This document shows, piece after piece, positions 17,061 through 42,806 of a stretch of DNA of 64,000 nt; within the stretch, counting starts at the first letter, position 1; the number at the start of each line of letters is the position of its first letter. The stretch spans positions 36,414,527-36,478,526 of the forward strand of contig OX485808.1 of assembly GCA_950295325.1 (NCBI GenBank), given 5' to 3'. The notes beneath the pieces were generated by a model. That model did no database searches. It was given only the letters and a program-made list of their open reading frames with translations, and was not told where the DNA came from. Made by a program: the position numbers and the translations under genes. Origin of the DNA: Polytrichum commune (taxonomy: Eukaryota; Streptophyta; Polytrichopsida; Polytrichales; Polytrichaceae).

Positions 17061-17430
17061 ATAGGTTTGAACCTAGAGGAGGAGGTTAGTAGGTGGGCCC
17101 GGGTTTGAGAAGATGGGAAGTAACTAATTGACACATTCAAACCCTACCCCACCACATACCCTCTACATTTGGGGTAGGTTTGTCCATATTCACACTAGTA
17201 TCTGGCAGGTGATTGGCATGCATGAAAACTCACCCTTAGCCGACCCATTTGGCATATGGAGACTAGAATCCAAATTTGTTGATGGTGTTGTGTTTACCTC
17301 ACCATATAGCCCTAGCACATGGGCATAGAATCGGCCACTTAGGGCCCCGCCATGGCGGTAGGTGCCACCCAGGCTGTGTTTGCCGCCAGGCCCAAGGTTG
17401 TGGGGTATGGGGCAGTAGCATGCACCGCCT

Positions 17431-19413: not shown

Positions 19414-19890
19414 AGCATACTAATGGCAAGTTACACTTGTGTACACTTTAGTCAACTTGTACCCCATTGTGTAACATATGCATCCACATCATAACACTAT
19501 TGAACATGCTCATGTCAAGATATTAGGAAGTGCACTTGAACGCCAAGTGTCATGAGTTGAAACTTATGGTGAGGGTGTTAATCATCAACATAACCTAAGA
19601 TATGCCTCAAAATACAGCAAGTGACACTAAATACCATAAATAGTGTAGTATATTGATACATGCAATACAATTGCCTTTGCAAATAGGTTGCCTCTTTACA
19701 CATGCCAATTACCTTGGGTGAAAACCACTTAAAAAACCCTTGTAACTTTGTTTATTCATATATATGGCACCCACATTTGAAATAAGTACTATAATTGTAT
19801 TAGTTTACTGTGGTAGAAAATACTGAAAATAGTGTAGAATGTCGATATATTAGTGTGGGCCAACCTAATTGCAGATATCAATGCACTAGA
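19414..19890. repeat. Left copy of a 477-bp direct duplication flanking the LINE
   Basis: Bases 19414-19890 match 27745-28221 at a constant offset of 8,331 with two differences seen (ACTGTGG/ACTATGG and ATCAATGC/ATCAGTGC). Repeat copy A shows the ancestral base at both sites, so each flank gained one change. Beyond its edges, the left side continues only to the left and the right side only to the right of the host repeat, as for a target site duplication. Confidence 0.9.
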
Positions 19891-20057
19891 AAAGAAAAGA
19901 AAAAGAAAAGAAAAGAAAAAATAACGCCCGTATTTTCACACGAGCATGACTACGAGCCCGTTGGCCTCATACTAATCACGGGTTCCGTGATGTAGTATGT
20001 GGTTTTATGCCTCCGTTAGGAGGTGGGCTCTGGTGGTTCCCTACAAGTTCATTTTGA

Positions 20058-23000
20058 TTAAGGTGGGGGTACGGGTGGTTGTTTATTGTCGAGTTTTCTT
20101 TTATTGAGTACCAAGTACGTGAGGTATTTAATAGCGTTTTGGTGTATGTCTTTCATGAGTTTTTTGATGTTAGATTTAGGGATTTTTAAGTCCGTTAGTT
20201 TTTGGATGGAGTGTTCGTGTATGGCTCCTCGTACTCCTGCAATGATTGTTATAACGGGGTTGGTTTTCCAACCCTTGTTGTGGATGTCGTGATTTAGTGG
20301 GTCGTATTTGGCGTGTTTCTGTGCAATGGCCTGTTCAGGGAATCTGTCATGGCAGTAAGTGAATTCGATAAATTGTACTGTGTGGTTGGATGATGGTAAT
20401 ATGGGTAGAGTGATATGATTTGGGGCACCGATCAAGCATAAGATGTCAGGTCTGAGTTTAGCTTGACATTGACATGGCTTTTGGGGGCATGTACATGCTA
20501 ATAACCAGTCTGGTACTGTGGTTTCTTGTGGCTGGTTGTTGAGATGTCCGGCATTGGTTCTTGTGAGGAACCGTGTATGTTTGTTTGCTTGTAATGTTTG
20601 TGTGATCAGATGTACTGCTTTGTTATGTCTTGCGATTCGGAGACCTTTTAAGTATGGGTGTTCGCATATTGATAGCAAGTGCGGCCACGTGTCTCTCTCA
20701 TTTATGTGGCAAAGTGTGCAGTTGGGGTTTGGGTGTGTGAGGGGCCAAAAAATACTTTTTCTATGGTTGCCCATATATTGAGCGTATCTAAATTTTAATG
20801 TTTGGGTGATTTGGGTATCTGGTATTTGGTCATTATTCCAAAAGTGATTGGAGAGTTTTTGGTTTATTTGGGTGTTGGAGAGCCATTTATCTACGTATGG
20901 GAATTTATTTATGGCTAGGGCTGTTTCTAAGTCGTCGTGTGCTTTTGTTATGAATGTGCGTAAGTTGCGGATGGCTCCGTCGTGTGTGCCTGTGGGGCAG
21001 CTGGCAAGCCAGTAGGGGGTGGGGCGGGCGATGTGGATGTGTGGGGTTTGTTCTGGTTTTTCTAAGTTATTCCCTTCATTTGCTAGGTCATCGGCTAGTT
21101 CATTTCCGGTGATGCCTGTGTGCGCTCGGACTTTATGTATGTGGATTTTGTGGGGGGTCCAGTAAATCTTCCTTACTATGGCGGCTATAAGTAGTTTGTC
21201 GGGGTGGTGGTGTTGTGATGTTGGGTGTTGTATGTGGTTATTTATGAGGTATATGCTGTTGAGGCTGTCGGTAAATATGTGTGTTTCTGTTTGTGTGATT
21301 TTTATGTTTTTGATAGCGAGGAGTATGGCATATAGTTCGGCTCTAAGTATATTTTGATAGCCTGGTAATCGTTTTGCTATTCGGGTGTTATTATTGGGGC
21401 TATATACTCCCGATCCTGCAGTATTGCCCACAATTTGTCCTTCTGAGTTTTTTGTGGGGGGGATGAAGGATCCGTCTGTGTATACGCATTGTTGTGGGGG
21501 GAATTTGGGGGGGGGGGGTGGGTGTATGTATAGGTATTTGGTATTGGTATGGTGGTGTGATTATTAGTGTGTGGTATATTTACTTTGGGGGTATTTTTCC
21601 ATAAATTGGAGAGTTTAACTTTATAGTGTGTAAGGTTGGGCTTAATGGGGTGGGTGTCTATATGTGTGTTAGTTATGTGTTGCAAGATTTGTTTTAATGT
21701 GTGCGGTGTTCGGACGTTTGGACTTAATGTTACTTGGTTGTGTATACAAATGATTGATGTGAGTTCCGGTTCGTCGTATTGGTAGTATGTTGGCCACTCG
21801 GGTGTAGGTTTATATTTTATGGTGTGTGGTGGTATGGTTGCCATGACGTGTATGTCGGGTTTTGTGGCAAGTGGGAGGTTTTGTGTTGTCCAGTCTTTAT
21901 GGTTGGCTATTAGGATGGTAACTGTTTTGGGGTCTTCCTTGGCGGCCATTCTGGCCCAGTGGATGGCTTCTAACGTTGTGTTGTAGTCCGTGGGGAAAGC
22001 TAGTCCTATCCCTGTCCATTTAGAGGATTTTGCGTGACCTAGTGAGCCGAATATTATGTCTCGGTTATGTGGGGAGTGGTATTGTGTTATTTGAATGGGG
22101 CATGTGAGGGGGGATGAGTAGTAAGTGTGTGTGATTTGGAAAGTTGTGATGAGTGTTTTGATGATTTCAGGGTGGAGTGTTTGATGTAGGTTTTGCGGTT
22201 GAATTGTCTTTGATTTTTTCTTGGGAAGTATAGTGACGTATCTTTGGAGGAGCCATAGTACTTCGGTTTCAAAATCTTGTGGAGGTGGGTGAAGGAAGTT
22301 AGTTAAATGTTGGTGTTTGTATTGTGTGAATTGGCTCCAAAGCCATTGTAGTCTATCTATATTAATGGAGGCGATGTGGTTTCCATTTTGATCATATACA
22401 CTGGCTACTGAGGTATTTATTTGGATAGTGGGTTTATTAACTAGGATGTCTTTGTCCGGGTTACATTCCTGGGTGGAGGTTGTAAGGTTGGTGATTTTTA
22501 GTGGTGGTTGGATGAATTTCATATCCTTAGTTTGGACATGTGAGAGGTAGTTGGCGTATGTTTTGGCCATTGTTTGTTCTAGTAGGGTGTTATTGTATTG
22601 TGTTATGGCTAGTAGGTTGTGGTCAAGTAGGATATTATCCGGGTGTAGAAGGTCTTCTTCCTTGCGCCATTGTTGTATGGTATTGTTCGTGTTTTGCCAT
22701 AGGCATAAGTATGATTTATTAATGGCTTGCGCACCCCACTTATCTTTTCTAGTGGTGGTTTTTTCCTTTATTATTTTGTGTATGGCTCGACCTAATGGCG
22801 GGTCTAGTTGTTGTATGTTTGTTAGGTTTGTTGGTGGCGGTGGTTGTATGGTGTTTTGGGGCGTGTGAGGTTGTGAGTGTGGGAATAGAGTTTGTGCTTG
22901 ATGTAGTGCCGCTTTGATAATTTTGGGGGCATGTTTGTATATAGTGCGGAATTCTTCCGGTGTGAGTATGGCATTAGTGGTCTTATTTTGAATTTGTAGG

Positions 23001-26000
23001 AGGGTTGTAATACCATATGTATATAATTTATCGAGGAATTTTTGGGATTGTGTTTTGGATTCTTCTGTTAAGTTGGCATATGTAGGGGTAGATTTCCATT
23101 TTAGTTTGAGTTGGGTTTGTTTTATGGGGAATGCTTTGCTTGCGGTGGTTATGTGTATCTCGTATTCTTTGTTCAATAAGAAGAGCGTGCGGGCTATGGG
23201 TGATCTTGAGCAGGCTTGTTGTTTTAGTTTCGGTAGATGTAGGGAGCCCCCGTATTTGGCTGTGATATATTTAGTTAGGCCTTGATATATGATGCCCAGT
23301 TGACCTTGGTCGTTAAGAGCTTGTAGCAATTGTTGGCCTATGCAATGTATGTAGTCCGGTAATAAAGAGGTGGCGTTTATACCAAAATTTTCGTGGGAGA
23401 GGTGGGTAAGGATATTGGTTGTGCTTCTAGGCATTTTACATGCCTCTTTAGTGATTTTGCTAATTATTTTGTCGAGTTTTTTGATATCTGGTTTTGAGAA
23501 GGGTACCGCATAGTACGCGTATGCAATGCGGGGCTTAATAACGGTATCGAGGATTTGTATTTTTTGTTTTAAGCTGGCCGGGGAGTTAGCAAGTAGTTGT
23601 CCTTGTTGTTTGGCTTTCTTTAATGTAATTTCTTTTTGTAAATTCCATTTAAGTGAGGGGACTAATTGGATGCCTAAGTACGTGTAGGGTTCGTTTTGTG
23701 TAAGAGTTGGAAAGTTCTTGTTTTTGTATGTGATGTGTTGTGATTGGATAAAGGCTTTGAAAGTGTTTGGGTTTAGTTTTGACTTATTGGGGCAACCTGT
23801 AATAGCACACTTGGCTAGATTAAGGTCCATGTGTGCCCATTCTGCAAATTTTTGTAATTTAGTGATTTGGGGTTGTATGTTCTGTATTGTATCGGATAGG
23901 ATGGCTAAGTCGTCGGCATATGCTGACGTGGTACACGATGATGGGGATGTGCTAAAGTGATAACCCTTGTTATATTTTTCTAGCCAACGCAGGAGCGGTT
24001 CTAAAAAGATAATAAAAAGATATGGACTAAGGGTGTCGCCCTGGATGGTGCCCCGGCTAATGTTAATTGGAGGTGTTGTGCCAAAGTGGCTCCCCGTGAA
24101 TGAGGTGGTAGAATCTCTGTATATATTGCCTATGATTTCGATTGCATCTGTAGGATATCCGAGATCTTCCATGAGTGCTAATAGTCTGGCATGATCAATA
24201 GATCCGAATGCGTTTCTAAAGTCTATGTATGTGATATATATGTCTTTGTTTATGAGTTTGGCATCTTCAAGGGAGGCTAGGATCATCTGAATTTGTCGGG
24301 AGGTATTTCTTTGTGGGCGAAAGCCTTCCTGGCTGAAGTGTAGCAATCTGTGCTGTTCGCCATAACTGGTGAGGAGAGTTGTAATAGTGCTGGTATAGAG
24401 CTTATAGATTGTATTTGCGAGTGCGATTGGCCTGTAGTTGGCCAGTTGGGTGGGGTCTTCTTTTTTGTGTAAGAGAATGGTTTTACTGTGTTTCCACTGT
24501 GTTGGAATTTCTCTTTGTTTATAACAGTGGTGAAAGAATATGTATATTAGGTCGTGGCATTGTGGAGGTAATGTTTTAATTATATCGTTGGGAATATTGT
24601 CTGGTCCGGGGGCTTTCCCTTTGGTTAGTCTTTTTACGCATTTGTCGTAAGTTGCTCTAGTAAATTGTGTGGTAATTTTTGTGTTTTACGGTCCTCTTTT
24701 TTCTAGTATTATACCGTCTTGCGTGTGCCATGGGTATTTGCGGATTGCACACATACATGTGTCTGGGTGGTCTATTGTGTCTTCGCAGTTGGGGGCCTGA
24801 CGTTGAAATGACGATTGTTGGGTGCGATATATTTCGTGGGCTATATCCGAGGGGTTGGTTAGTATGGTTCCCTGTGGGTTTTGTATGCAGTCTAGGGAAT
24901 TTTCGGTTGTTGGTTGGAATATCTTTTTGTGGATGGATTTAGGTTTAGTATTGAGTAGAGTGCGATATTTTTTTATGGTAGTTTTGATGTTGAGCATGGC
25001 TTGTTTGGCGGTAATTTTGTATGCTTCGTTTTTTGCTGTTTTGCCTATAGTGGCTAACGTTTCTATCCATTGCGTTTGTTCGGTGTGGTTAGTAGGGGGT
25101 GGAGGAATGTGAATATTTAAAGGTGAGAGTAATGTTATTATGTCTGGGTGGTTTTGAAGTTGTGTGTGGGGGTATTGACATGCCACGTGGATGGCTTTGC
25201 GGATGTTATGGTGTGTCTTAAGGTGGGATTTCCATCTTTTTTGTTGTTGTCTAGGGAGGAATCCTCCTTGTAGTTTGGCTCTGTGTGGGAGTGGGGGTGT
25301 TGGTTGGGACATGCATGTTTGTTCTATGCATGTGCTAAGGGAGCTTATTATTTCTTGGAAGCGGTCTTTGGCTTCTTGCCATTGTTGGTGTGTGAATTGT
25401 TCTTGTTTCAGAATGCTTGTGAGGTTGGTTATTGCGAGGTTTTGTTTGTCGAGGAATGTAGTGTATAAGGTCTGTAGGTTAGTTTCTGACATAGGGTAGG
25501 TGATTCGGGGGCTGGGACTAGGGGTTGGTGTTGTTTTGATGATAACGCTATTGGGGGCTAAAATTAATTGTACCGGGTAGTGATCGGAGTTTTGGTTGAG
25601 GTTGGTGATTGTGTGGCTTTGTAGTGTATTATGATTTGGGATGTTAGTGTAAAAACCGTCAATGAGGCTTGTTAGTGTGTAGTTATGTCCTCCTTGTCTT
25701 GTATGACTTGCTTGGTTGTGGATTATGTTGAGACCTATGCTTTGGGTGAATCTAGCCCATTCGTAGTCATTTGGGTTAGGGGGGGATGTCATCCCGTTGG
25801 ATGATCGTCCTTTTAGTAGTATGTCTCTGTTAAAGTCTCCGGCAAGGATGATGTGAGATGTTGGGTGTTTTGTGGTTAGAGTTTGGATTTGGGTTTGGAT
25901 TTCTTGCACTAAGTGCAAGTCTTGAGGGTGTGTGGGCATATACATATTTATGAGGAGTATGGGGGTGATTGGTTTATTTTTTATCATGATAATTTGTAGA

Positions 26001-27112
26001 TATGATGATATTGTGCTTGGGGTGGGGATCTTGGTTATGTTTTCATTTGTGTGGATGGCTTTTGGTATCATGATAAGTGTGCCTCCTCTGGCTTTGTTGG
26101 TTTCGGAGTATCTGTTTGGTTGTTGGATAATGTTATTTGAGTTGTTATATATGATTTTATAGTTTTGGAGTTTTCTATCTATGTAAGATGTGGATTTGAA
26201 TTTGTGGATTTTGGTTTCTTGGATAAGGATGACATGTGGGTCCTTGTGTAGTGTTTGTGTGAGTTCTAGTATGCCGGGGAGGCTGGTATTGATGCATCCT
26301 GCATTCCAAGTTATGATTTTTAGTTGTGACGTAGAGTGTGTGTCGTCGATTGTGGTGGTGTGTGGAGTGTGGGTGCTTTGTGGCGGGTTTATGTTCGGGT
26401 GGTATCCTATGATTGGATGGGTGCATTTAGTAAGTTCTTGTAGGATTTGTGGGGATATGTGTGGTAGTTCGTTTTTCAAGGTGGTTATATTTGTGGTTTC
26501 ACCTTTAGCTATTTTTGTGTTGATATGTGTGTAAGGTTGAGCTATGGTGGTGGCCTTTGGGTTGTGGGTGGGGTTGGTTTTTAAGGGGATGTGTGGTTGT
26601 GTGTTATTGGAAAGTTTGTGTATATTCCGTAGTAGGGTATGACCTATCGGGTCCATGCCGGTTATCATGCGTTGGTTGCATATTTGTGGTAGAGGGTTAT
26701 ATGTTATTATGAGGACATATATTTGGAGGTGGATTGGGTATTTTGAGAGTAGTGACTTGTGTTTTTGGAGATGGGATAGTTCATGGTTAAGGATGTTTTG
26801 TGTGCCATGTGTTAGGTGGGGTGTGAATAGGCTTTCTAGGTGTGTGTAGCGAGGTTTGAACGATGTTGTATTAGGTATGAAATATTGCTTTTGTCTTTGT
26901 TTGTATTCTAAGGGGAGGTTTTGGGTGATGTTTGAAAGTGGACCCGGGTTGGGATGCATGTCTCCACCAAGTAGGATGATTTTGGAGTTGTTCCATGTGT
27001 AGTAGTGGATGGGTATGTATTTGGGGGATTTTAGATGTTTGTGAGATATGTAGTAAATGTAGCCTATGTGGGTTATGTGTTGAATGGGTGGTGGTGTTGT
27101 GGCGTATGTCAT
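20058..27112 (-). pseudogene. LINE ORF2 polyprotein (2A-like, APE, RT, RNase H, CCHC, REL-like)
   Basis: About 2,350 codons, much longer than usual LINE ORF2s. From ATG at 27112: a 2A-like GGDMHPNPGP at residues 49-58; an APE endonuclease with ITWNAG (266-271), IQET (297-300), AGDFN and NSDHYP; in-frame TAA at 24686-24688; RT with GKAPGPDNIPN, then ITYIDFRNAF and the YADD box at 23909-23920; about 600 unassigned residues; a frameshift near a 12-base C run (plus-strand G run 21507-21518). The next frame (21431-20058, numbered from its first Met) has RNase H with Glu32 and Asp55, the YTDGSF Asp just upstream, C238-x2-C241-x9-H251-x4-C256, and RPD327-329 with FIEFT (354-358) and KHAKY (372-376). 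It copies element RNA into DNA at a nicked target. Confidence 0.88.
26939..26983 (-). other. 2A-like peptide motif at the ORF2 N-terminus
   Basis: Residues 44-58 read KIILLGGDMHPNPGP, a hydrophobic run followed by D-x-H-x-NPGP. The 2A consensus is D-x-E-x-NPGP, where the ribosome skips the last Gly-Pro bond. Related motifs at the same N-terminal place are known from animal and trypanosome APE-type LINEs. The His in place of Glu may weaken activity. If active, it would release a 57-residue leader from the polyprotein. Confidence 0.6.
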
Positions 27113-27425
27113 TTGTGAGAAACATGGAGTGGGAGTGGGAGTGGGATTGCTTATGTTGTGTGGGTGGGAGTGATTATGGTATGGGTTGGTGATAGAATTT
27201 TTTGGGTTTGGGTGGTTTATATTGTTTCAGTATGGTGTGTGTTGTGGTGTGTTATGTGTGATTAGAGTGGTGGAGGGGACCCATAACATTGAGATGATAA
27301 TGGCATAGAAGAGGCTAGTAGTGAATGTTTTAGTGCATGTGCACTTTTTATTTATATATACAAATATAATATATAGGAGACAAATGTTGTATGTAATCAT
27401 CGACCTTGTAGATGCTATGGGGTTG

Positions 27426-27744
27426 CTATTCATTTTGGGAATTTGGGCCTTTGTGGTAACTTGATGGGGAGTGCCTATAGTGACTAGTGTTGAAGCTCGG
27501 GGGCGCTAGTTGTGGCGTGTTGGTGTTGTCCGTTGGGTTGTGTGGCATGTGTGGGAGTCGTGCGGGGAGGGGGGGCTCCGGTAAGGTGGCGGCGATTGTT
27601 TGCATGATGTTGTGGATGCGGTGATTCGATTGTTGAAACTCCATGGCCATTGCACTCATGATGTTGTGGATGTTGGCCGCGTGGGATTTGAGTGTTTCCG
27701 TGGATGCCTCGATTCTCGCGTCCGTGTTGTGGTTAATGGTTAAT
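27426..27744 (-). pseudogene. LINE ORF1, 5'-truncated
   Basis: The frame is open from the element edge at 27744 to the stop at 27426. The apparent Met at 27749 belongs to the duplicated flank, so the true start is lost. The visible part has a heptad-like region (about 27720-27600: RIEASTETLKSHAANIHNIM) that may form a coiled coil. A Pro/Ser-rich tail follows. LINE ORF1 proteins are usually RNA-binding chaperones, but no zinc knuckle or RRM is seen in what remains. Confidence 0.5.
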
Positions 27745-28221
27745 AGCATACTAATGGCAAGTTACACTTGTGTACACTTTAGTCAACTTGTACCCCATTG
27801 TGTAACATATGCATCCACATCATAACACTATTGAACATGCTCATGTCAAGATATTAGGAAGTGCACTTGAACGCCAAGTGTCATGAGTTGAAACTTATGG
27901 TGAGGGTGTTAATCATCAACATAACCTAAGATATGCCTCAAAATACAGCAAGTGACACTAAATACCATAAATAGTGTAGTATATTGATACATGCAATACA
28001 ATTGCCTTTGCAAATAGGTTGCCTCTTTACACATGCCAATTACCTTGGGTGAAAACCACTTAAAAAACCCTTGTAACTTTGTTTATTCATATATATGGCA
28101 CCCACATTTGAAATAAGTACTATAATTGTATTAGTTTACTATGGTAGAAAATACTGAAAATAGTGTAGAATGTCGATATATTAGTGTGGGCCAACCTAAT
28201 TGCAGATATCAGTGCACTAGA
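27745..28221. repeat. Right copy of the 477-bp direct duplication flanking the LINE
   Basis: Pairs with 19414-19890 (constant offset 8,331). At its right edge the sequence continues as in repeat copy A (ACCACTTTGATGGCATTTAT), whereas the left copy gives way to the LINE tail. Confidence 0.9.
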
Positions 28222-31200
28222 CCACTTTGATGGCATTTATCTGTTGTCTCCCATGCACAAAATTTGCATGTGTGGTGGCATTTGACAGTGGGCTAGAGTA
28301 ATTATCTATACCAATCACATTAGTTCTGAACCCATGCTATATCTCTTAGTTTGAAATTCGTGTGGCTTAAAAAATCACATCATGAATTCATTGTCCAGAA
28401 TTATAGACAAAAACAAAAGAAGGGGGAAAAAGAGAGTTGGGCATTATTTAAAAATGACATGATTGAAAGCCTAACTTCAAATTTGAAGTCCCAATCACAG
28501 GTAGAGTGGATTTGGGGAAGCTTAAAATTGGTAGGGTAACTCTGTCAACTTTTGGTGGGTCCACACTCTGGAAGCATGAGACTAGTATTGGGAGCCACAA
28601 AATTTTATGCTGTAAAAATTATCAATTTAAAAATACCATATGCCTCAGGACAGACGGAAGCCCTTATGATGGCCCCAATGGCCCACTCATTCAAGAGGCC
28701 TTGGGGCTACCTTGGGCTTGTTTGGCCAAAGGCTCACCCCCACTCATGCTCTACTCTTTATACAACGAGGTAGCTTTGAGGCAAGTAAGGCACACATACT
28801 CGGATGTTTGCCATAACATCACTCAAATGCATTCTCCTTCTCTTCTCTTTCTAATTCTAAGTAGTGCAATGCAGGGGACTCATATTCAGTTTGGCTAGTT
28901 GTAGATTCCAACATCCTAGCTCTTTGTGCCCAAATCTTATGTGGCAATCTGCCTGGCCCACGGAACAAATGAGAGACTTTCAGTAATGTTAAGGCCCTTG
29001 CCTCCAAGGAACCAGTGTACATGTTGTTTTGCCCCAGCCTGAATTCAGCCTTCCAAAAATAGTTGCGTCAAACATCATCATATACTTCATGATGTTAAAT
29101 GATAATCATGGTTTCTTTTTTAGTAAAATAGTCTATACTAAACAATGTGGTTGTAGATACATTGTTCCTTATTGCCGGTGCAACTTACAAACATAAATGT
29201 GTGCAGACAGTGGGTGCGGGAAAATGTGTGCAGACAATGTGCGGCAATTTCTAGATGTTGGTGGTAACCCTAAACTCTACACGAGGCCTACATAATGCCA
29301 ATCTGGAGCAGGAGGCCTGCACTTGGACTTGGACCCAAGGAAGGCGTGCAGTTAGTAACTGTTGAGGGGTTGATCACACCAACCAATTTAAACACCATCT
29401 GTCGGCATCTCCGGCTTTAATAGCGTGAAAAGTGGTGGACCAACATTATTTATGAACATAATCCCCAACAATTTCATGGTTGATACCGGGCGGAAAGTTT
29501 GGTGTGATTGAGGCATGAGCTTCATCTAATTTGGCTTGGGATCTGGGTCCCATAGTTCAATAAGGGCTGGTTTACACTATGGACCATGAAGTGGGACCAT
29601 GAAGAGGGTTTGTATCAATGGTCTGAGTTCAAGGTCCAATTTCCATGGTTTGACTTCTTAGAAAATCAATTTTGAAAGCCTTGGGTCCCTCACTAGGTGT
29701 AAACTAAATGTGGACCAAGAATAATGACCATGCACCAAAAAGTGCATGTGCTGATTTTTTTAATATATGCCCAAAAAGGGCAATTTTGAAAAAATAAAAA
29801 TAAAAATTCAAGTATGCTCATTCTCTTGTCTTCTTATGGGCTTTACTTGTCTTGGCTTCTTGTTAAATGTGTCAAAGATATGGCTTGCAATTCTTCTCAC
29901 AACATTTTTTACAAAAAGAAATGAGCAATTTAGTTTGTACATGTTAAATGTAATTTACATGTGACATGTACCTTGTGTTGTACATTGAGCATTATTTGCA
30001 ACCCGCTTCACCATGTGTACTCAAATTCTTGAGTTCTAGATGTCTCACATTGTTTGATGAAACATGTGGGAGCAAGTTTAAGGGATAGGGCATGAAAGAA
30101 ATGGTATGTCTCATGGGCTATGATATGATCTAGGCACTTAGAGGGTGGATTTGCCTCTCAAAATTCATTACATCACTTAGATGTTGAAAATTGTGCCTTG
30201 TGAGCCTTACGTAGTGAGAAGAGTTGTATATAAAGCCCCCCCAAAAAATTTCATTGAAAAATTTATTATAGCGGCATTTCTTTGCCAAGGGCCCTTGCGT
30301 TTTCCTACCAGACCACCTCAATCGCCTCCCTTACGGGAAAACCCATTGGACCATTATCAATGTATTAATTAGGCCTTAAAATATGTCTTTTGGGGACCTG
30401 GACCTCCATGGTCACTCTACCATTTTTTCTTTGATGTAAACCAAAGTGGTCCCAGGACGAGCTTAGTAGCTAATCAACGCTCTTGTAGTGCCCCGGGACG
30501 ACTTCCTCGTCCATAGTGTAAATTGGCCCTTAGTGTCGACTTCCATGTAGGTCGCTTGTCCACTAGATTCCAAAAAAATAATGGGTCGGAGGTGTTCTCG
30601 TGTACTTAAGCGAAAACCGGCATCCAACTATATTATGGCAATTTGTTAGACTAAGGAGGGTTGTGGACATGGGCTTTAAGACTTCCATGCATCCATGAAA
30701 GAATCTTCAACCTACAAATTTTGATCACCGAAGGTTTTTAGGATTAGTTTTAGGAGGAGGAAGAGGTCTTAATTTGGAGGAGGAGGTGAGTAGGTGGGCG
30801 TGGATTTGAGAAGATGGGAGTAGCTACTTGGCGCATGTGAACCTTACCCCACCAAATTCCCTTTACATTTGGACAAGTTTGTTCCTTAGGATGAGTTTTC
30901 ATGTAGGCCACTTGCCCACTAGATTCTAGATAATAGATGGTCGGAGGTGTTCACATGTAGTTCAGCACACCCCGCTATCCAACCACATTATGGTGGTCTA
31001 CTAGAATGTGGAGGGCCATGAAGACAAACATGTAGACTTGCATGTGTCCGCTAAAGAATATTCAACTTTCAAGTGCCAGTCATTGAAAGATTAAGACCGG
31101 TTGAAGACTCATAAAAAACCAAGGTTGGTCTAGACCTCCATCCTTGATAACCGGGAGGGGGAGGTTAGAAGGTGGACCCGGGTTTCAGAAGATGGGAGGT

Positions 31201-36660: not shown

Positions 36661-38018
36661 TCTACATTACACATCTATATTTACGTTATACATAATAAGG
36701 CTAAAGTTTTGAAACAATCACTACAAGGACATGGGTTATGCTGAGATTTGGACTATGTGCTCAAAATACAAACACCATGTTAGGTTGAATTGTTAATGGA
36801 ATTTGGGAGGGCTGCTGTGATCAGTTATAGAGGAAAGGAAGGTTGACTTGACTTACTATTACTCATTCAATGTCTAGTGTTAACATTGAAGGTGTTTATT
36901 AACTTCAATGTTTTGTTAAACACCCACAATATTAAAATTCCAATTGTTGATTCTTCCAGAGTTGTTTTGAATGGTTAAATAAAGGAATTTGATTTATTTG
37001 CTCTTTGTAGTTGTCAATCACATTGTTGATAACAAGGGTTATGCTCATATTTTCTTGTTGGCTATGATTCTCAATGCGTTAGGGATAAGAGTGGGTTTGT
37101 GGTTGTGATGAACAGTGAATTCTTGTTGAAGTTCCACTTCAATTTCACCACCTGATAGGTTATATTGTTCTCATCTTTTGTCCCTCCAAACTTGAATTTG
37201 ACAACATTTTGATTAGTAATGATTTTATTGAGGCCATAGTAATTTGATGTGGATATTTTAAATTTTTGAAATTATTCACATACAAGAAACAAATCATTAG
37301 ACTTTATAAATTTGAACTTGGAATTTTTATGTCTTATAATTGTGGTGAACAAAGCAATACTCTGATTTATGTGTCACACATAGCTTTATGTGCTTTCTTA
37401 TACATGTTTTAGGTTTACAAGACATAGTAAGTAGATTTGAAAAATTCTCTACAAAGTTTGGATAAGCAAGGAATTTTATATCGTATCCACTTAGGAAGAG
37501 CTTATTTGCACCTCATGATACTCCAACCGTATTGGGTGTGCACAATAAAATGGTATTTGTCTCATGCTGGACGTCATTCAGTCTATAGTAATTTAGTGAT
37601 ACATAAAGCACCTAAATTTGCAAGGGATTAAGCATGTTATTCATCTTGGGCTCATTCTTATGTTGTAGACATGAAACTGTGACAATGCAATGTTATGTAT
37701 TGTATATTGCAAACCCAAATTGTCAATAAATGCCATGTGATGATTCATAGTGAAATTCAGGGTTGACATATTAGTTCAATGTACACTATCAAGTTATGTG
37801 TTAATTTAAGATGTTGATATGCTAGGTGTGTTCCATATAAAGTATTGTTTGAAAACAACACAACAATGACACCAAGTGGGCATCAAACATAAAAAAAGTC
37901 TAGCAATATGTATACAAATTATGCCAAATGATGTTGTCTTTTCCTTTGTGTGATGTGGCATTGAATTTGTGGATGCGACGTGACTCTAATTCTTACCCTT
38001 TTTTTGTTTTATATGCAG
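36661..38018. other. Region upstream of the NLR gene, no coding gene seen
   Basis: About 1.35 kb of AT-rich sequence. A polypyrimidine tract and TATGCAG at 38012-38018 form an acceptor just before the NLR start codon. An untranslated 5' exon therefore probably lies in this region, but I cannot place its donor. Confidence 0.4.
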
Positions 38019-38021
38019 GAT

Positions 38022-41000
38022 ATGATGGCTAATCAATCCAATATCTTGGGGCTTTGTATATTCAACATTGACTACATACAACAAATTGTGCATGAGGGGG
38101 GTGCCAAGTTTGCATTGAATCAACGCCAATGCACATGTCTTGCACAAACGCTCAAAAAATTCACAAGAACCATAGAAATTATTTTCTCCCGTACAAATGA
38201 GTTTCTTAGCAGTTGTGACTTGCTCTTGAAGGAGTTGTTTCTAGTTATTGAAAGGGCCAAGTTGTTGGTACAAGAGTGTTATGGTGAGAAATGGTGGCAT
38301 GTAGCATTGCTCCAAATCCACAATGAAGAGGCGTTCCAAGACTTGTTCATGGATCTCAAATCTTGTCATGATGATATTTATCAACATTTAAAAGGCCAAT
38401 GTGTTGGACAGTTCGACCAATTTCAAGATGATTTGAGTTTTTCACTAAGCACCATGAGTGAATCGGGAGTTGAAGATCATCTCGAATTGGTGAGGCGATT
38501 ACAAGCAACTGTAGAACCCACACATTCATCCTCTAAGAACAAGGCCGCTAGCGAAGAGTCAACGATTGCGGCATACTTGTTGAAAAGATATGACAATCAA
38601 GGAAACTATGTGAATGGTGGACAACATGTGGAGGTTGATGCACGATTGGGTTGGCAAGGCTCAAGCCCACTTGGAGAAGGTGCGTGTGGCCATGTAGAGA
38701 AAACAAGTTGGTTTGGTTTGCCTTGTGCAAAGAAGGTTCAAATTTTGGGTGATATGGAAGATGGGGACAAAAACTTCAAGAAAGAGGTAGGCATACTTGC
38801 AAGTGCCAATCACCCAAATGTCGTGAAATTCATATGTTGTGGCCGAAAGCTAGAGAAACGCAAATGTTTCATTGCTATGGAGCTTCTAGACACAAGCTTG
38901 GAGGCATTGATGGAGGAGGTATCAAATGGCGGAACAAAAACACCCTTCCCAATTCAAGTAGCTATGGACATCATCTTACAAATCGCGAAGGGCATGAGTT
39001 ATCTACATGAGAAGAAAATTGCACATCGGGATTTAAAACCTGCCAATGTATTGGTGCATAAAATCATGGTGGACGAATTGCACAAGGACAACTATGTGAA
39101 TGTGAAGTTGGCCGACTTTGGACTTTCAAAAACGGATGCGCATAGCAACATTTCTGAGAAATTAAGCCAAGGTATTGGGACGAGGTTGTATAAAGCACCT
39201 GAGCTATTCCACTACACCAACCAAAAGACAAAGAACACGATGTCTTTCGCATTGGAAAAAGTGAATGCACATGAAGCCGATGTATATAGTTTTGGTGTGA
39301 TGTGTGCAACTATACTCTCAGGAAACCAACCATTTGAAGGCAATGGTCATGATCTTCCTACAAGGCTAAGGTCAGGTGAGAGGCCATGGGTGCCTGATGA
39401 TTGTCCCAAAGCTTTGGTGTCCTTGATCAAGGAATGTTGGTCATTAGACCGAACAAAGAGACCCAAGTTCAAGGAGATTTGCACAACATTAAAAGAATTG
39501 AGAAGTTCCATTTTACGGGGAAATGTTGCACTTAGAAATCAAAAGCTGGAAAATGAGACAACCTTGTTTCAAAGGGTTTCAAATTTGCCTCAGGACGTCA
39601 TGTATTTGTGCAAACGCTTTTGGAGGGCACCAAATTTGGAGGGGAAAGAAGCTAATGAGGCCCAACATACAAGTCAAATTCATACCAAGGTATTAATCCT
39701 ACCAATATATTAAATGGTTTAGAAATTAGTTCACATCAACTTTCAAATAGGCTAACAAATATAATCAATTTATCTTGTTGTATCCATTTTCATCAAATAT
39801 TGGATCCAAATACAAATTTGAAATCTTATTAAAAGAAAAAGCGTATTCTTTTAAATGAGATAATCAAGGTACTTTGGTAGCACTCATAGAAATCACACTC
39901 TTTTGCATTTATTGTAACTTACATGTCAAAGCAATATCTAATATCAAATTTTTTATGTATGGGGTTTTCAGCTTTTTGCACCATTGTCATGGGCAAACCG
40001 AATACTTCCATCACAAGTGCGGTCCACACATTCATTACCGTCACTCCCGGTTCACTTTGTCAATATTGATAAGAAAATCTCAAACGTGTTATTTCAACTA
40101 GAATCCAATCAAATTCTAGGCATCGTCGGGATGGGTGGAAGTGGAAAGACCACTTTGACAAAGGCCATTCTTCATCGTGTGCATCAAGACTTTGAAGCAA
40201 CAAGCTTTGTGGCAAATATGAGAGACTCCAAAAACATCTTGGATATACAAAGACAATTGTTGGAGGATCTCAAGTGCAAGAAACCCATAAAGATTGTTGA
40301 AGAGGGGTTTAAGTACCTACAAGAGATATTTGAGAGGAAAAAAGTTTTTGTTGTCTTTGATGATGTTGCCTCTCAAGAACAACTCCATGGGCTAGTTTCA
40401 TCTAAGTGGAAGTTTGCTAACGGTAGCAAGATCATTGCCACAAGCCGAAATTGGCAAGACTTAAAAACAACTTGTATCTCACACAATGGAAAGATGGACA
40501 TGGAGTTATTGGAGGAAGATCAAGCAAAGGAGCTATTCTACAAGCATGCATTCTTACAACAACAACCTCAAGGGCCGCAATTTGAAATAGTTGCCAACAA
40601 AGTCATCGAAGCATGTGGTGGTTTGCCTTTGAGCTTGGAAGTATTGGGAGGTTATTTGTGTGGAGTTCAAAGGCTTAGGGTATGGCAACAAGCATTGCGA
40701 AGATTACAGAGGGGACAATGCCTTGGTGGTAGTTGGGACAACGAAAGGATATGGAGAACGTTGAGGATAAGCTACGATAATTTGGATGAAGAAGAGAAAA
40801 ACATGTTTTTGGACATTGCTTGTTTTTTTTGTAGGGATGTTCTCAAGCAAGGGATGGAAGAAGAGAAGGCGTTGAAAATATGGGATTGTGATGATAGTAA
40901 CACACATTCTGCACTTTTGAATCTCATGGACCGAAGTCTTGTGTGAATGGATTCGGATGGGATGTTGACAATGCATGATCATTTACGTGACATGGGACGT

Positions 41001-42806
41001 ATGATAGCATGCAAAGAACATATTGGAGGACAAAGAATTTGGAATTTGGATGAGTTTGAGCCCACCAAATCTAATGCGAGCATGGTAAATGAATATATCC
41101 ATCATCTTTGTCTAGTGTCATAATCATAAAGCGTCCAATTTTGATGAAATTGAGTTTGCACTTATAAGATTCTTTGTAGAAATAATATAAGGAAGTAAAT
41201 GTTTATGTTTGAAGGTTTTTTCATCAATTGAGAGAATATGAAAAAATCCATACACTTAAAAGAGTGCTGTAAACAATGATTCATGGCATGGTTGATGCAG
41301 ATGATGCAAAACGTGGAAGGTCTTCATGTGGCTGGATCTCATTGTAATTATGATATGATTACAAGTTTGGATATGGCAAACATAAGGCTCTTGCATATCA
41401 ACAATTGTGTGAGTTTCGATTACTTTTACAAAGCAATGAAAAATGCGAATAAATTGAGGTGGATGCGGATAAGCATGAGCTTTAGCCCATATAGATGTGA
41501 AGAAATTGAAGAGCTGCAACCATCATTTTCCATTTCATTCAAACAATTGCGTGTGTTCGAAATGGAGAGGTTTGTGCATTTGCAACAATTTCCACTTGAA
41601 ATTGGAACCCTTAAGATGTTACAATACCTTACCTTAGTTGATTGTAAGGCATTGGAATTCATACCGGAGACATTGGGCAACTTGACTTCATTGGTGACAT
41701 TGGACTTGTATGGATGCTCGAGCTTGAGGGAAGTACCAAAGACATTGGGCAACTTGACTTCATTGGTGACATTGGACTTGTATGGATGCTCGAGCTTGAG
41801 GGAAGTACCAAAGACATTGGGCAACTTGACTTCATTGGTGACATTGGACTTGCAAAGTTGCTGGAGGTTGGAGGAAGTACTGGAGACATTGGGCAACTTG
41901 ACTTCATTGGTGACATTGGACTTGCAAAATTGCTCGAGCTTGAAGGAAGTACCGGAGACATTGGGCAACTTGACTTCATTGGTGACATTGGACTTGAGTT
42001 GGTGCTCGAGCTTGAAGGAAGTACCGGAGACATTGGGCAACTTGACTTCATTGGTGACATTGGACTTGAGTCGGTGCTCGAGCTTGAAGGAAGTACCAGA
42101 GACATTGGGCAACTTGACTTCATTGGTGACATTGGACTTGCAAAGTTGCTGGAGGTTGGAGGAAGTACCGGAGACATTGGGCAACTTGACTTCATTGGTG
42201 ACATTGGACTTGAGTGGTTGCTCGAGCTTGAAGGAAGTACCGGAGACATTGGGCAATTTAATTTCATTGGTTACATTGAAATTGAATGGTTGCTCGAGCT
42301 TGAAGGAAGTACCGGAAACATTGGGCAACTTGACTTCATTGGTGACATTGGACTTGAGTTGGTGCTCGAGCTTGAAGGAAGTACCGGAGACATTGGGCAA
42401 CTTGACGTCATTGGTGACATTGGACTTGAGTCGGTGCTCGAGCTTGAAGGAAGTACCGGAGACATTGGGCAACTTGACTTCATTGGTGACATTGGACTTG
42501 CAAAATTGCTCGAGCTTGAAGGAAGTACCGGAGACATTGGGCAATTTGACTTCATTGGTGACATTGGACTTGAGTTGGTGCTTGAGCTTGAAGGAAGTAC
42601 CGGAGACATTGGGCAACTTGACTTCATTGGTGACATTGAACTTGCGTGATTGCTCGAGCTTGAAGGAGATACCGCAGACATTCGGCAACTTGACACCATT
42701 GGTGACATTGGACTTGCAATGGTGCACGAGCTTGAAGAACGTACCGGAGACATTGGGCAACTTGAATGGGTTCTCGAGCTTGAATCGATGGAATCTATGG
42801 ACTTAA
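38022..42806 (+). pseudogene. Kinase-NB-ARC-LRR immune receptor (PNL type), one internal stop
   Basis: Exons 38022-39689, 39972-41084 and 41301-42806 join in phase 0 with GT-AG introns, giving about 1,428 codons. Residues 1-150 form a helical region (ERAKLLVQEC, EKWWHVAL) resembling the HeLo/DUF1221-type bundle of plant MLKL proteins. The kinase follows: LGEGACGHV, CAKKV, HRDLKPANVL, ADFGLSK, APELF. NB-ARC has GMGGSGKTTL, VFVVFDDV, GSKIIATSRN, CGGLPLSLEVLGG and FLDIACFF. TGA at 40944-40946 interrupts the frame just before MLTMHDHLRDMG (MHD motif), and the frame then stays open. The LRR exon has 15 uniform repeats and ends abruptly beside repeat F. Such receptors sense pathogens and act inside the cell. 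This allele is probably broken or truncated. Confidence 0.88.
41667..42746 (+). repeat. 72-bp tandem array encoding 15 LRRs
   Basis: Fifteen 72-bp units encode ETLGNLTSLVTLDL, then ~C~SLKEVP (24 residues), followed by a partial sixteenth. Variation is mostly at two or three solvent-facing positions (YG, QS, QN, SW, SR, SG, NG). Blocks SW-SR and QS-C-WRLEEV recur out of order, as unequal crossing-over produces. Because 72 is divisible by three, several other frames on both strands are also open. Those frames are artefacts. Confidence 0.95.

Follow-up and report, generated by a model that had tools for sequence, protein, structure and literature searches.

The genome of the moss Polytrichum commune very likely contains a Dualen/RandI-like LINE in which an APE endonuclease and an R2-like restriction-like endonuclease (REL) are encoded together. 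Two reservations accompany this conclusion: the reverse transcriptase (RT) tree contained no Dualen sequences, and the REL fold is unconfirmed. A LINE normally has a single endonuclease, APE having presumably taken the place of REL. Elements with both enzymes represent a living intermediate of the REL-to-APE change and are known mainly from green algae; the expanded, apparently recently active moss family places this arrangement in land plants. A dual-endonuclease LINE had been proposed in a first-pass annotation made from the sequence alone, and the proposal is supported by Pfam matches, the C-terminal similarity to R2, the invariance of key residues, selection on both nucleases and an RT lying outside moss L1.

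Structure of the window copy

The window is the whole 64,000-nucleotide stretch that was analysed. The following features of the LINE copy and its borders were recognised.

19414..19890, no strand: probable target-site duplication of about 477 bp, on the element's 3' side; 475 of 478 positions match 27745-28222
19891..27744, minus strand: 5'-truncated copy of the dual-endonuclease LINE, delimited by the flanking duplication and by alignment to longer copies
19891-19925, minus strand: (TTTTC)n 3' tail of the copy
20058..20453, minus strand: probable restriction-like endonuclease, with RPD (20453-20442), IEF (FIEFT, 20372-20358), K..KY (KHAKY, 20318-20304) and VRG (20240-20226)
20466..20495, minus strand: additional C-x-C-x5-C-x-C knuckle located after RHN and before RPD; R2 lacks it, and it is invariant in both moss families
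20622..20639, minus strand: RHN motif, common to R2 proteins; R2Bm gives the top PDB matches of the profile
20664..20720, minus strand: CCHC zinc finger, C-x2-C-x9-H-x4-C (CTLC..H..C)
21070..21491, minus strand: RNase H (Pfam PF00075, 1e-16)
21500..21525, minus strand: frame change at a C-run in ORF2
21860..22276, minus strand: PCIF1_WW-family (cap methyltransferase family) domain, with AFPTD in place of NPPF (Pfam PF12237, 4e-8)
23662..24463, minus strand: reverse transcriptase with QGD and YADD (Pfam PF00078, RVT_1, 7e-35); R2 gives the top PDB matches
24686..24688, minus strand: in-frame stop codon, absent from intact relatives
25574..26314, minus strand: APE endonuclease with ITWN, QETK, AGDFN, DGFYTN and SDHYP (Pfam PF14529, 3.5e-9; PF03372, 3e-7)
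26939..26968, minus strand: 2A-like motif GGDMHPNPGP near the ORF2 start (motif only)
27427..27743, minus strand: C-terminal remnant of ORF1, reading like the ORF1 end of copy L037
27745..28221, no strand: probable target-site duplication on the element's 5' side

The near-perfect direct repeat of about 477 bp that flanks the LINE is most readily interpreted as a target-site duplication, and it sets the borders of the element. The copy, which is 95% identical to L037, begins within the C-terminal end of ORF1 and is thus truncated at its 5' side. A full element length of 7.85 kb was considered and rejected, as this is the size of a truncated copy and untruncated relatives measure about 11.9 kb. 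All motifs named in the first-pass annotation lie where it had placed them, and its APE, RT and RNase H assignments were confirmed by Pfam. Two points needed correction: ORF2 of this copy is not a single open frame, as it carries the stop codon and the frame change, and the copy is 5'-truncated. In untruncated relatives ORF2 is one intact frame of 2305-2422 aa.

Copies and families in the moss genome

The moss identity of the host is also indicated by its LEAFY gene, which is closest to structure 4bhk (FLORICAULA/LEAFY homolog 1 of Physcomitrella), at about 80% as judged by eye from the alignment, and by a kinase-NB-ARC-LRR gene in the window. The part of the window copy that runs from RNase H to REL was used as a query against 408 Mb of the genome, in seven large contigs. 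At least 89 good copies were detected, distributed on all seven, and therefore the LINE is neither a chance product nor an assembly chimera. The untruncated relatives, referred to as family A, are about 11.9 kb long and comprise an ORF1 of 1300-1500 aa, a 2A-like motif and a single intact ORF2. Three copies (L031, L033 and L035) share 99% mutual identity over approximately 11.9 kb, and such nearly identical siblings indicate recent movement. In copies read at their 3' end the tail is (TTTTC)n and not poly(A). No Pfam match was obtained for ORF1 in three proteins, most of whose length was checked.

A search with Pfam PCIF1_WW revealed a further group of long ORFs, family B, in which L058 and L059 have intact ORF2 frames of 2912 and 2625 aa with the same domain order as family A. 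The two families are about 42% identical, and RPD/KPD, FIEFTY, K..KY, the CCHC finger and the extra C-x-C-x5-C-x-C knuckle are all retained in family B. Scanning of viral contigs and phages found no relatives there.

Domains of ORF2 upstream of the C-terminus

The APE assignment rests on two Pfam models above their cut-offs and on the presence of the catalytic motifs (ITWNAG at 26314-26297, AGDFN at 25843-25829, SDHYP at about 25588-25574); in the RT, YADD occupies 23920-23909, and the RNase H sequence named in the first-pass annotation lies at 21482-21072. No zf-RVT match was found by Pfam in the ORF2 proteins of the LINE. The 2A-like motif reads GDIHPNPGP or GDIELNPGP in relatives, and canonical forms (GDIETNPGP, GDIEPNPGP) occur in family B. 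A 2A-type break ahead of ORF2 is likely, its activity being inferred from the motif only.

The domain located between RT and RNase H was unexpected for LINE biology. PCIF1_WW exceeds the Pfam cut-off in the window copy (4e-8) and in family B (up to 2.9e-12), and falls just under it in three other family A proteins. The assignment depends on Pfam, as PDB searches returned nothing relevant, either for a single sequence or for a profile built from four rows. NPPF is the catalytic motif of the PCIF1 methyltransferase family; the corresponding position reads AFPTD, AHPPN, AHPHN or AHPHT in the sequences read, which include the window copy and L058-L064. A structural or RNA-binding role is probably a better explanation of this domain than catalysis, although any role is inferred. 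The literature searched contains no report of PCIF1 in retrotransposons.

Lineage of the reverse transcriptase

The moss RT scored 138, 127 and 90 bits against R2 structures, 75 against human L1 and 58-82 against moss L1 copies. With group II introns as the root of the tree, the LINE family formed a branch of its own (100/100), and R2, moss L1 and an RTE sequence also formed separate branches. Placement within either moss L1 subgroup was rejected by AU tests (p 0.0003 and 0.0006), which did not reject sisterhood to L1 as a whole (p 0.10) or sisterhood to R2. The RT of the LINE family thus lies outside moss L1. According to the first-pass annotation, an RT grouping inside plant L1 would have counted against the dual-endonuclease reading; this outcome was not met.

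As a separate observation, the plasmid record NZ_CP104070.1 (L057) contains a plant-type RTE reverse transcriptase interrupted by stop codons, and this sequence in a bacterial record is likely a contamination.

The R2-like C-terminus

The order of motifs in the C-terminal region (CCHC, RHN, RPD, IEFT, K..KY) is that of R2-type restriction-like endonucleases. When a C-terminal profile was compared with 177,635 PDB sequences, the two best matches were R2Bm, colinear over the CCHC-RHN segment, at an E value of about 0.7. Profile-profile comparison with three R2 endonuclease regions gave P 3.9e-5, with none of 300 column shuffles reaching the same score (37 against a maximum of 23.6), and P 1.1e-5 when families A and B were combined. 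For the core that follows RHN, family A alone yielded a weak profile match, equalled by 20 of 300 shuffles; with family B added, the match was in the correct register (P 0.0048) and only 1 of 200 shuffles was as good.

A PD-E-K..KY pattern derived from R2 is present in R2Bm, R2Tg and all three family A proteins tested, as well as, by alignment, in both family B proteins. It appeared in 0-1 of 400,000 shuffles and was not found in a moss L1 (L052). The pattern was composed from R2 and the moss LINE, so the LINE was in view when it was made. The residues PD...E...K..KY are invariant between families A and B, and the Asp of the R2Bm KPD corresponds to the residue given as Ala in PDB entry 8ibw. 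A structure prediction, which the first-pass annotation had named as a check, was carried out on the C-terminal 232 residues of the window copy with single-sequence AF2; the model (pLDDT 31) was too poor for a fold search and gives no fold. The C-terminal domain is likely an R2-like REL, a conclusion drawn from the motifs, the colinearity with R2 and the invariance, whereas the PD-(D/E)XK fold lacks structural confirmation and cleavage is inferred. The REL had originally been read by eye from motif spacing; it is now supported by the colinearity, the invariant PD/E/K residues, the shuffles and purifying selection.

Selection on both nucleases

The active sites of both nucleases are conserved. 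Between three family A copies, dN/dS reached 0.14-0.17 for APE, 0.07-0.13 for REL, about 0.03 for CCHC-RHN and 0.04-0.08 for RT and RNase H, so that the values for APE and REL are within or somewhat above those of the RT and RNase H. Both APE and REL are under purifying selection. The two nucleases have been kept by selection over a long divergence, with families only 42% identical and intact frames in both; therefore, both are probably needed.

Proposed mechanism of insertion

The duplications flanking the copies differ in size: 477 bp at the window copy, about 17 bp at L045 and 12 bp at L044. At several other junctions no target-site duplication was found within 0.4-3 kb, and this is true of most junctions examined. 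Giant duplications as a general property of the copies were accordingly rejected.

The inferred mechanism is target-primed reverse transcription. At its full size of about 11.9 kb, the element has two ORFs and a (TTTTC)n tail. It would yield two proteins: one from ORF1 and, beyond a probable 2A-type break, a very large one from ORF2 that contains APE, RT, the PCIF1-family domain, RNase H, the CCHC finger and the R2-like REL. One endonuclease, most simply APE, would nick the first strand, the T-rich tail of the RNA would pair with the primer, RT would copy the RNA and RNase H would remove it. The REL, placed by the zinc finger, would then make the second nick at a loosely set distance, so that an insertion could have no duplication at all or one measuring hundreds of bp. 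The variable size of the duplications may thus be due to a nick distance that varies between two different nucleases, which is an inference, as is the division of labour itself. Which nuclease cuts which strand becomes testable in a plant group with working gene targeting.

A bolder reading may be formulated, though the balance of evidence falls slightly short of it. It posits that dual-endonuclease LINEs have a land-plant branch, which has expanded in one moss to hundreds of copies, and that both nucleases take part in insertion, so that the duplication may be absent or reach nearly 500 bp. Such a branch would have captured, between RT and RNase H, a domain of the PCIF1 family (the mRNA-cap adenosine methyltransferase family) with a changed catalytic motif, possibly serving as a reader of the cap or RNA 5' end.

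Alternative explanations

The alternative that survives best, although it is unlikely, is an APE LINE in which the C-terminal domain has retained just the R2-like zinc finger and RHN region, for binding DNA or RNA, and the PD-(D/E)XK core does not cleave. In its favour, profile similarity is strong only at CCHC-RHN and weak elsewhere, some copies have RPN or KPG in place of RPD, and no confident fold is available. Against it, PD, E and K..KY do not vary between the two families, whose overall identity is only 42%, the dN/dS of the REL is low (0.07-0.13), and motif order and spacing are as in R2.

It is very unlikely that the LINE is a plant L1 whose C-terminal zinc-finger domain was acquired independently and resembles R2 by convergence. 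Sisterhood of the LINE family to L1 was not rejected (p 0.10), and RNase H may also occur in plant L1 elements according to the literature. However, placement inside moss L1 was rejected (p 3e-4 and 6e-4), the RT scores R2 above moss L1, QGD replaces the QGC of L1, and zf-RVT, which adjoins L1 RTs, is missing.

Chance resemblance of motifs or an assembly or annotation artefact, suggested by the fact that the motif was first matched by eye, is all but excluded by the shuffle controls, by the occurrence of intact frames in both families and by the copy number, which is at least 89 across seven contigs.

Comparison with known elements

For the preferred reading, a Dualen/RandI-like element, the closest known counterparts are the Dualen/RandI LINEs. 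Dualen encodes both APE and REL (PMC3636483, PMC4640811) and occurs across core-Reinhardtinia algae (PMC8226300); LINE/Dualen has also been annotated in cryptophytes, by repeat annotation (PMC12747079). A review of plant LINEs lists RandI families only from green algae, with non-poly(A) tails such as (CTATTT)n and paired SINEs ending in (CTTT)n (PMC3747384). The moss LINE shares with Dualen/RandI the presence of APE, REL, RT and RNase H in one element, as well as a non-poly(A) repeat tail. Dualen/RandI has been described from Chlamydomonas and its relatives, whereas the host here is a land plant. The first-pass annotation knew of no land-plant or charophyte case, and no land-plant case is reported in the literature searched, which did not cover Repbase. 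The PCIF1-family domain, the 2A-like motif, the ORF1 of 1300-1500 aa and the length of 11.9 kb characterize the moss LINE; no Dualen sequences were included in the comparison.

The best PDB match of the moss RT is R2 (R2Bm 8gh6/8ibw, R2Tg 9dou, 9nl2, 9nl3), and both proteins have CCHC, RHN, [KR]PD[IL], D/E, K..KY and RG in the same order. Beyond R2, the moss LINE has APE, RNase H, the PCIF1-like domain and the CxC-x5-CxC knuckle, and its ORF2 is more than twice as long. In the R2 clade the REL is the sole endonuclease and insertion occurs into 28S rDNA, whereas the moss LINE, which has APE too, is scattered across all seven large contigs and its flanks vary; the flanks seen gave no sign of a fixed, R2-like target site.

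Plant L1, represented by moss copies L048-L054 of the same genome, shares APE and RT with the dual-endonuclease LINE, and L052 reads as an APE-RT L1. Moss L1 belongs to another RT lineage and is characterized by a QGC motif, no REL pattern (L052) and a zf-RVT match just downstream of the RT (C1:49042598, C1:47510639), in contrast to the dual-endonuclease LINE, which has QGD and no zf-RVT.

Genomic surroundings of the window copy

Diverged direct repeats (74-84%) at 17063-17188 and 30764-30888, 13.7 kb apart, together with inverted pieces, surround the LINE and could be traces of an older element into which it nested. Farther along, the plus strand of the window at 37965-42806 encodes, in consecutive frames, a protein kinase, NB-ARC and near-identical tandem LRR repeats, that is, a kinase-NBS-LRR resistance gene; kinase-NB-ARC-LRR genes are a class known from mosses.
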